Source: Bacteroidales bacterium (GTDB lineage Bacteria; Bacteroidota; Bacteroidia; Bacteroidales; UBA932). Taken from it: a stretch of 64,000 nt of DNA. Positions 41,396 to 43,104 of the stretch are shown here, in pieces (positions within the stretch are counted from its first letter, which is position 1; each line of letters starts with the position of its first letter). The stretch is taken from NCBI GenBank assembly GCA_017428725.1, contig JAFRQH010000022.1, positions 1-64,000 of the forward strand. The letters are read 5' to 3'. The position numbers and the translations under genes are program-made. The notes under the pieces were generated by a model that saw nothing but the letters and a program-made list of their open reading frames with translations, was not told the DNA's origin and made no database searches.

Positions 41396-41569
41396 ATGAA
41401 AGATCTTGTTAAGAAAATCGAGGCGACGATGGATGCCTTCAAAGTCAATGCTGAGGCTCAGGTAGTTAAGGGCAACAAAGCCGCTGGCGCCCGCGCCCGC
41501 AAGGCCGCTCTCGAGCTGATGAAGGATCTCAAGGAATTCCGCAGGGTTTCCGTCGAGGCCGCCAAGTAA
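41396..41569 (+). CDS. Histone H1-like (Hc1-type) small DNA-binding protein
   Basis: 57 residues: MKDLVKKIEATMDAFKVNAE, then GNKAAGARARKAALELMKDL and a short tail. This is the compact Bacteroidota Hc1-like protein with the conserved GNKAAGxRARKxxLEL core, thought to bind DNA non-specifically. Own promoter; the stop is followed by two T-runs (41570-41587), which together with a weak AAACCT/AGGTTT hairpin at 41600-41632 may end transcription. Confidence 0.9.
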   Translation: MKDLVKKIEATMDAFKVNAEAQVVKGNKAAGARARKAALELMKDLKEFRRVSVEAAK

Positions 41570-41668
41570 TTTTTTTTATTTTTTTTGCAACGTTCACGAA
41601 ACCTCCTGCATCTATGTTGTAGGTTTAGGTTTTAGTACACGTCTAAGAGTCGGTGAGCCGCGAGGTTG

Positions 41669-41708
41669 AGCCGGCTCTTTGCTTTTGTAAAAAAGCAAAG
41701 AGCCGGCT
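41669..41708. repeat. Perfect 18-bp hairpin
   Basis: AGCCGGCTCTTTGCTTTT at 41669-41686 pairs perfectly with 41691-41708 around GTAA. Its right arm runs into the first copy of the 54-base direct repeat. Confidence 0.9.
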
Positions 41709-41833
41709 TCGCCTATTCATCGAGGGGCGTTCCCCTCGAGCTCCCCCGGTCGCTTCGCTCCGAACTACCATCATCCAACAGCAAAGAGCCGGCTTCGCCT
41801 ATTCATCGAGGGGCGTTCCCCTCGAGCTCCCCC
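41694..41833. repeat. 54-base direct repeat, two copies
   Basis: Identical copies at 41694-41747 and 41780-41833, beginning AGCAAAGAGCCGGC and ending CTCCCCC, 32 bases apart. Each contains the hairpin TCGAGGGG-cgtt-CCCCTCGA. The first is followed by GGTCGCTTCGCTCCGAA. Confidence 0.9.
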
Positions 41834-42130
41834 CGGAATGCTGCTCGCAGGCAGGGAGGGTGGATTCGGAGCGAAGCGACGGGGGGAGTCTGAGGGGACC
41901 ACCCCTCAGACATAGTTTAACGCCAGGGCAGATGTCCGCGACATCTGCCCTACCCGGGCAAAATGCTCCTCAAAGGACCCTGCCTGTCTCGCTGTAGCAT
42001 TCCGGTCGGGCGAAGGTAGATTCGGAGCAGAGCGACGGGGGGAGTCTGAGGGGAACACCCCTCAGACATAGTGAAACGACGGGTGCAGATGTTCTCGACA
42101 TCTGCACCCAGCCTGCGAGCAGCATTCCGG
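41833..42130. repeat. MITE-like unit with 20-base terminal inverted repeats
   Basis: CCGGAATGCTGCTCGCAGGC at 41833-41852 is the exact reverse complement of 42111-42130. Between them are two related 54-base blocks (41863-41916, 42019-42072; start GATTCGGAGC, contain GTCTGAGGGG/CCCCTCAGAC) and two palindromes with different but perfectly paired sequences. No open frame resembles a transposase. Confidence 0.8.
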
Positions 42131-42144
42131 AGAATGAAAAGTGG

Positions 42145-43104
42145 TTAAAGCAGGGCGGAGAGGCACTTGCGGAGGCTGTCGGTCCAGTAGGGGACAGACA
42201 GGCCATAGGTGGCTTTGACCTTGGTCTTGTCAAGGACTGAGAACGCCGGACGTCGGACCGGGCTCGGGAATTCGTCGGAATGGCAGGGCCGGATGTCACA
42301 GGCGGAGCGTCCGGCCTCCGGGCAGATCTGATCCGCCATTTCCGCGATCCGCTTCGTGAAATCATACCAGCTGCAGACCCCTTCGTTGCTATAGTGGTAG
42401 ATGCCGCAGACCGGTCCTGCCAGGATAGCGAGAATGGCGCTGGCCAGGTCGCCGGCGTAGGTGGGCGTGCCGACCTGGTCGAAGACCACGCTGAGCCGCG
42501 GTTTCTCGGCCGTCAGGCGGAGCATCGTCCGCACGAAATTCTTGCCGAATTCGCTGTAGAGCCAGGCGGTGCGCAGGATGACGTACCGGCAGCCGGTGCG
42601 CTGGATGGCCTGCTCGCCGTGGAGCTTGGTCAGGCCGTAGACGCCGGTGGGTGTGCCGGTCTGGTCCTCCCGGCAGGGGGTGTTGTACGGGTCTCCGCCG
42701 AATACATAGTCCGTACTGACGTGTATCAGCAGGCCGCCGTTCTCCCGCATCGCCAGGGCGAGGTTCTCCGGAGCCTTCGCGTTGAGGAGCTCCGCCAGTT
42801 CCGCGCGCTCCTCGGCAGCGTCCACGTTGGTGAAGGCCGCGCAGTTGACGATAGCATCGATCCGCCGCTCGCGCACCAGGGTGCGGACGGCATCAAGGTC
42901 GGTGATGTCGAGCCGGCGCGTGGACGTGTCTACGGGCGCGCCGCCGGCGAGCTTGCGGAGCATCGTGGCGGATTCCTCCGAGGCTTCGGTGACATCGGTG
43001 AAGAGGAATTCCATTTCCGGGCCCGGCCCGGAATGACGGGAAGCGGCCAGCAGCCGCATCTCATTGCCCAACTGGCCGTTGGCACCGGTGACAAGGATAT
43101 TCAT
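42145..43104 (-). CDS. rfbD: dTDP-4-dehydrorhamnose reductase
   Basis: Last step of dTDP-L-rhamnose synthesis (NAD(P)H-dependent 4-keto reduction). 319 residues, extended [23 protein letters not shown] Rossmann start, HVSTDYVFGG, the active-site GVYGLTKLHGEQAI (YxxxK) and VILRTAWLYSEFGKNFV. The ATG at 43104 overlaps the rfbC stop by four bases; an upstream open extension is rfbC in another frame. Last gene of rfbACD, ending next to the repeat block. Confidence 0.95.
   Translation of the reverse strand: MNILVTGANGQLGNEMRLLAASRHSGPGPEMEFLFTDVTEASEESATMLRKLAGGAPVDTSTRRLDITDLDAVRTLVRERRIDAIVNCAAFTNVDAAEERAELAELLNAKAPENLALAMRENGGLLIHVSTDYVFGGDPYNTPCREDQTGTPTGVYGLTKLHGEQAIQRTGCRYVILRTAWLYSEFGKNFVRTMLRLTAEKPRLSVVFDQVGTPTYAGDLASAILAILAGPVCGIYHYSNEGVCSWYDFTKRIAEMADQICPEAGRSACDIRPCHSDEFPSPVRRPAFSVLDKTKVKATYGLSVPYWTDSLRKCLSALL

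Follow-up and report, generated by a model that had tools for sequence, protein, structure and literature searches.

A hairpin repeat confined to one genus of gut and rumen Bacteroidales, with the properties of a mobile element

The window analysed here is a 64,000-nucleotide stretch of a Bacteroidales genome (contig JAFRQH010000022.1, positions 1 to 64,000). It carries four copies of one repeat, two per strand, between a short gene with its stop codon at 41567–41569, whose encoded C-terminus looks histone H1-like as judged from its sequence, and the minus-strand rfbD gene, which ends at 42145, to the right of the repeats. A sequence-only reading of this region had described four diverged copies in two orientations with hairpins, and their coordinates, sequences and perfect pairing proved to be as claimed. 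The copy list itself required amendment: all four copies exist, but the second minus-strand copy is truncated and has lost its core, a third minus-strand hairpin had been missed, and the plus-strand pair, grouped with the others, sits in a composite cassette that stands apart from them and has ends of its own.

The first minus-strand copy, M1 (41691–41747), has a core hairpin, TTCGGAGCGAAGCGAC, at 41749–41764 and a perfectly paired hairpin 1 with the arms TCGAGGGG and CCCCTCGA at 41720–41739 (covariance-model match, 41710–41764; E = 2.2e-14). The hairpin that had been overlooked (41669–41708, minus strand) is the locus-specific, or third, hairpin of M1, with perfect 18-bp arms; its far arm (41669–41686) faces the 3′ end of the left-hand gene, which ends at 41569, and its near arm occupies 41691–41708. 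M2 (41777–41833, minus strand) is a tandem copy of M1, 98% alike, truncated with loss of the core at 41833 (model match, 41796–41837; E = 1.4e-5), and its hairpin 1 arms lie at 41806–41813 and 41818–41825. The plus-strand copies, P1 (41856–41927) and P2 (42012–42083), are 88% alike and share a perfectly paired hairpin 1 with the arms GTCTGAGGGG and CCCCTCAGAC (41888–41911 and 42044–42067, respectively). Their core hairpins lie at 41865–41880 (model match, 41865–41919; E = 2.7e-16) and, as TTCGGAGCAGAGCGAC, at 42021–42036 (model match, 42021–42075; E = 3.0e-16). Their third hairpins are perfect as well: that of P1, AGGGCAGATGTC/GACATCTGCCCT at 41925–41951, is a variant of a hairpin common to the cassette copies, others of which carry the GCAGATGT version, and that of P2, GGGTGCAGATGT/ACATCTGCACCC at 42081–42109, faces the 3′ end of rfbD. 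The plus- and minus-strand pairs are 84–86% reverse-complementary over 43 nt. The core, with up to three mismatches, occurs four times in the window versus 0.16 times expected; the repeats, which crowd and nest within this region, are not due to chance.

The cassette that encloses P1 and P2 spans 41833–42130, with the end sequence CCGGAATGCTGCTCGCAGGCAGGG at 41833–41856, an inverted copy of it at 42107–42130 and an internal related end at 41982–42005. A pattern for the end motif was found at 17 sites across the genome. The ends, CCGGAATGCT(GCTCGC/ACAGCG)AG(A)CAGGC, constitute a second repeat family, only some copies of which enclose the hairpin element. Yet another family is represented by a module, ...GGCCGCCCGTGGCCTCGTGAACGGGAGGGGCCC...GATAGCGCGAAGCGCGTAGTTTTC..., which is common to three loci of the same genome (L003, L006 and L008) and lies beside cassettes there. 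Tandem arrays of the hairpin element were observed at L107 (own genome, contig C7, near 151.8 kb), L065, L133 and L140; the array unit comprises the core, hairpin 1 and the near arm, and the far arm, where visible, is found only in the last unit. Immediately before a sequence that resembles the RNase P RNA gene, L009 (G000:C30, near 78.02 kb) has a diverged core, TTTTTGAGCGAAGCGACTGGGGG, together with a long hairpin.

The genome and its relatives were searched with the core and with a covariance model, as the sequence-only reading had proposed. The core with up to two mismatches occurs 18 times in the 2.63-Mb genome, versus none for a reversed control pattern, and a covariance model built from 18 copies detected about 26 copies in the genome at E values below 0.003. 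Matches were obtained in 25 of 41 congeneric genomes, some of them weak. Among 295 sampled genomes of the order, representing 183 genera, only the own genome was matched, the remaining 294, one further genome of the same genus included, giving no match. A strict pattern matched 86 stretches in a search over 84,980 species; the matches listed came from Bacteroidales or Bacteroidia assemblies, many of them from ruminants, except for one titled Selenomonadales, which we take to be mis-binned. Thus delimited, the family is confined to one genus of gut and rumen Bacteroidales and is patchy even there. A similarly strict pattern had no exact match in the viral contigs searched, and we set aside a phage origin. 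In Rfam only sub-threshold matches were obtained, none above the gathering threshold of a family. That reading had named two findings that would speak against it, confinement of the copies to the window and free loss of pairing elsewhere; instead, copies are many and pairing is kept.

In all, 173 distinct copies were collected, and 151 of them were used for a boundary profile. Conservation sets in sharply at position 0 and tails off around position 47, giving a unit of about 48 nt with the consensus 5′-TTC GGA GC NNN GC GAC nn AGGGGG TCT GGGGG nnnn CCCCC AGTCAT-3′. Its core is a bulged hairpin, TC-GGA-GC-NNN-GC-GA, with a variable loop, followed by AGGGGG and then by the G/C hairpin (hairpin 1). 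Upstream of the core the profile showed no conservation and hence no GTAG tag, and terminal inverted repeats, absent from the 48-nt unit, are present only on the composite cassette. The fold is conserved while the sequence changes, as had been claimed for the window copies: the core stem has the compensating variants GGC/GCC, GGCC/GGCC, GGGC/GCCC, GACC/GGTC, GCC/GGC and AC/GT, and hairpin 1 has 73 distinct, mostly perfectly paired arm pairs (for instance, CTGAGGGG/CCCCTCAG, TTGAGGGG/CCCCTCAA, CCGAGGGG/CCCCTCGG, CAGGGGGG/CCCCCCTG and GCGGGGGA/TCCCCCGC), although these counts do not represent independent events since the copies share descent.

Beyond the 3′ side of the unit, mostly starting 55–70 nt from the start of the core, lies the third hairpin. 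We scored it as strong when the stem score was at least 10, with arms of 10–26 nt and a loop of 2–8. By this definition a strong third hairpin is present in 100 of 168 copies and missing from 68, versus 0 of 168 shuffles, 1 of 159 downstream stretches and 2 of 156 upstream stretches; with strong stems in just 1–2% of control stretches, chance palindromes do not account for it. Its sequence differs from locus to locus (99 distinct among the 100). Where a judgement can be made, the far arm is native DNA (a gene, a terminator or a tRNA 3′ end) and the near arm an inverted copy of it. Ortholog comparison shows that the far arm encodes family-typical residues in mnmA (GGATTTTGGAAGGC, RILEG) and mutY (EPLV), and structure alignment shows the same for WLLMFK in purL; the residues LLLEP in hrpB, AIG in tatD, FVE in rlmN and IVPML in tsaB are presumably of this kind, as judged by the point where the family match resumes or by what is typical of these families. 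The near arm of mnmA is absent from the empty-site orthologs, and we therefore reject landing on a pre-existing hairpin for this gene; at terminator sites such landing may occur. Among six mutY orthologs, 93% of the third-hairpin cells are paired, with five double-changed pairs, and the covariation score of the whole mutY structure was reached by none of 500 shuffles. Stretches of 12 nt or more, often much longer, stand on both sides of the unit as direct repeats in 34 of 167 copies (controls, 0) and consist mostly of near-arm sequence; we noticed no short target duplication of constant length around the copies.

The selection for the folded form that the sequence-only reading had drawn from the kept pairing is one of several readings that fit, strong as the covariation is. 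Pairing of the locus-specific hairpin also follows from the way its arms are made, because one of them was copied from the DNA next to it, and arm pairing is perhaps also restored by re-copying.

The orientation of the element was examined at stable RNA genes. ARAGORN located 26 tRNA or tmRNA genes no more than 180 nt from a core. In 26 of 26 cases the element turns the side bearing the third hairpin toward the gene's 3′ end, and none of the other three possible geometries occurs. The third hairpin at these sites is the terminator, often stretched past its T-tract by the reverse complement of the tRNA 3′ end, as in the tRNA-Lys example GGGAGCAC-AAAAATAGCC...GGCTATTTTT-GTGCTCCC. A run of 7 nt or more from the last 15 nt of the RNA gene recurs in inverted form at 10 of 29 loci with the element versus 2 of 22 without it, a conservative contrast because some of the loci counted as lacking the element hold a diverged copy (e.g. 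L183 and L073); on inspection, both exceptions do. The window has the same geometry, M1 facing the 3′ end of the left-hand gene and P2 that of rfbD. Another possible source of this polarity is that such an arrangement is the one tolerated, or of use, next to tRNA genes.

Copies are not restricted to the ends of genes. At least one open frame, in some cases perhaps non-coding, crosses 84 of the 173 copies. Family searches identified tsaB, hrpB, purL, rsmA, rdgB, tatD, rlmN and mnmA as genes interrupted in frame and without stop codons, and mutY likewise carries the element in frame without stops. The same searches found interruptions in a U32-family gene, a methyltransferase gene, mnmG, hydF and the genes for a GH3 glycosidase, a GHMP kinase, an AcrB-type pump, and radical-SAM and B12-dependent proteins. 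Both orientations occur inside genes, and SEATQGVWGIRPP is an example of the peptide that such an insert is predicted to encode. Orthologous sites are often empty. In mnmA, anchors that lie 42 nt apart in nine orthologs are 126 nt apart in genome G062, an in-frame gain of 84 nt. Alignment with a solved MnmA-type protein stops at residue 138 and resumes at residue 173, where the solved protein has about seven residues, which puts the gain at the element at about 27 residues. The mutY site is occupied in G000, G008, G120 and G131, and in G082 without the third hairpin, and is empty in several other genomes; further occupied copies lie in named loci. Such gene-internal copies make a purely intergenic regulator unlikely. 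The element behaves as a mobile repeat that enters even protein-coding genes, and not as an RNA element particular to rfbD.

The same variable spots hold other palindromes. Of 121 genomes sampled from the genus, only 26 have a close mutY match (E ≤ 1e-60). One of the mutY loci, L248 (G142), has the mutY hairpin, GCCGCTGGTC-aac-GACCAGCGGC, without the core or hairpin 1; this may be an excision scar or the pre-insertion state, and it is possible that the hairpin came first there. Three further loci, L274 (mnmA of G061), L251 (mutY of G103) and L212 (mutY), contain in-frame palindromic inserts of the form GTCATTCC...GGAATC, repeats that resemble CGTC/TGTC-type REPs and are separate from the element, in the same genus. 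A further type of in-frame palindromic insert, TTTTTCGCAAAGCCTTGCGAAAAA and similar, occurs in mutY of three other genomes (L264, L267 and L268). The mutY linker seems to collect palindromes.

We consider that the repeat is a genus-specific, non-autonomous mobile hairpin element whose insertion makes an inverted copy of target DNA, perhaps by self-primed (snap-back) synthesis, and assign this reading a probability of about 0.6. Its landing sites are the 3′ ends of genes (terminators and tRNA/tmRNA 3′ ends) and in-frame positions inside protein-coding genes. Its mobility is well supported, though indirectly, by comparisons between genomes. From these patterns we infer dedicated moving machinery and self-primed copying. 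The 3′ end of the target would fold over onto its own strand, through a terminator hairpin if one is present, and would be extended by 10–25 nt with that strand as the template. Synthesis would then switch onto the element, as RNA or single-stranded DNA, copy it to its defined 5′ end and join the other side. Fold-back, self-extension and template switching would be expected to leave an inverted target copy, a 5′ end that is sharp and a 3′ side that is fuzzy, as observed. Against a simple snap-back stand the 68 copies that lack a strong third hairpin and the L248 hairpin without a core. It also counts against the favoured reading that neither candidate enzyme could be tied to the element: Y1 transposase genes, though common, are not flanked by it, and several genomes rich in it have no reverse transcriptase. 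Repeated insertion at one spot or a long target duplication fits as well, because of the tandem arrays and the direct repeats at 34 of 167 copies. More tentatively, the repeat might represent a novel class of small mobile elements, in which self-primed extension is followed by a switch to a template of small, structured RNA (or of single-stranded DNA) whose 5′ end is fixed, each insertion carrying the palindrome of its landing site.

Bulged hairpins are the usual substrate of Y1 HUH (RAYT/TnpA-REP) enzymes. The element could accordingly be of the REP type, moved as single-stranded DNA in trans by such a transposase (family described in PMC6006769), with its bulged hairpins as recognition sites and the locus hairpin reflecting a preference for hairpin targets and repeated insertion at one spot. 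Y1 transposase genes are present in 31 of 41 genomes, their number correlates with that of element copies (Spearman 0.45, p = 0.003, uncorrected for relatedness), and tandem arrays do occur. We nevertheless regard this explanation as rather unlikely: there is no GTAG tag, the sequence upstream of the core being unconserved; the element was found in only 2 of 40 Y1 neighbourhoods and never as flanking pairs; and the near arm of mnmA, absent from orthologs, is not explained by pre-existing hairpins. Membership of the RAYT/REP group itself was rejected, the Y1 genes being present but unflanked by the element and the tag missing. Linkage to a reverse transcriptase was also rejected, its gene being missing from several element-rich genomes and the correlation weak.

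A cis-acting 3′-end element, namely a terminator, RNA stabiliser or antisense blocker that spread long ago and is kept by selection behind genes, would account for the position behind genes with a fixed polarity at all 26 tRNA/tmRNA neighbours, for terminators strengthened by extension and for the conserved fold. It sits poorly with the many in-frame copies in conserved genes, which occur in both orientations and at places where termination would do harm, and with a patchy distribution in which orthologous sites are often empty; we find it doubtful, more so than movement by a Y1 enzyme. Still less probable is spread and homogenisation of hairpin-rich sequence by replication template switching, slippage at palindromes and recombination, with no mobile machinery at all. 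The tandem arrays, the near-arm direct repeats upstream of 34 of 167 copies, the coreless L248 hairpin and the kept pairing at mutY would all fit such a process, but a single unit of about 48 nt with a sharp 5′ end at more than 100 sites in unrelated genes would not, and strong palindromes are rare away from the unit.

The closest known counterparts of a mobile hairpin element of this kind are the Rickettsia palindromic elements (RPEs; Ogata 2000, 2002). As reviewed in PMC10969869 and PMC2229807, these are short palindromic repeats of about 105–150 bp with terminal inverted repeats, many of them in frame in conserved genes, where they add about 25–50 residues, and others intergenic, with no transposase known. 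The present element resembles them in being dispersed, in frame in conserved genes, also intergenic and without a known transposase. By description it is set apart from them: it consists of two separate hairpins without inverted ends, whereas an RPE is one long palindrome; its taxon, a Bacteroidales genus, is different, as its sequence probably is; and it has a locus-specific inverted target copy, for which PMC10969869 and PMC2229807 give no RPE equivalent. CGTC REPs, which include dRS3, RPE-4 and RPE-6, are hairpins without a linked transposase, some of them intragenic and encoding 20–30 residues, and have been reported from Bacteroidetes among other phyla (PMC3733652). They too have a hairpin with a G/C-rich core, no linked transposase and some copies in genes, but their hallmark, a terminal unpaired CGTC (or TGTC/CCTC) on a single 8–9-bp stem that starts with A-T pairs, is absent here, and the element has two conserved hairpins with a G-tract between them. 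With GTAG REPs and their RAYTs it shares dispersed bulged hairpins, often behind genes, and Y1 transposases in most genomes (PMC3733652, PMC2817692, PMC6006769), but it lacks the GTAG tag and does not flank the Y1 genes. MITEs are likewise small, non-autonomous and dispersed and can fuse with reading frames (PMC10969869), but the 48-nt unit lacks terminal inverted repeats, which only the surrounding composite cassette possesses. Palindromes inside translated conserved genes are also found in the mitochondria of Nematomorpha, as perfect inverted repeats with both arms encoding conserved protein (PMC6649704), whereas in the present case only one of the two arms does so, the other being an inserted copy linked to a repeated element. 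As far as tested, the element works like RPEs and intragenic REPs and is a member of neither. The open-access literature yielded nothing matching in-frame palindromic elements in Bacteroidetes or snap-back insertion, and the mode of insertion stands a real chance of being new.

Most known cases of mobile palindromes inserted in frame into housekeeping genes come from Rickettsia, together with some intragenic REPs elsewhere. The rumen and gut Bacteroidales provide a separate and diverse case, a set of natural experiments on proteins that tolerate some 25–40 inserted residues. How CGTC repeats spread without a linked transposase is left open in the literature on them (PMC3733652), and the locus-specific inverted copy offers a testable clue to the spread of palindromic repeats of this sort.
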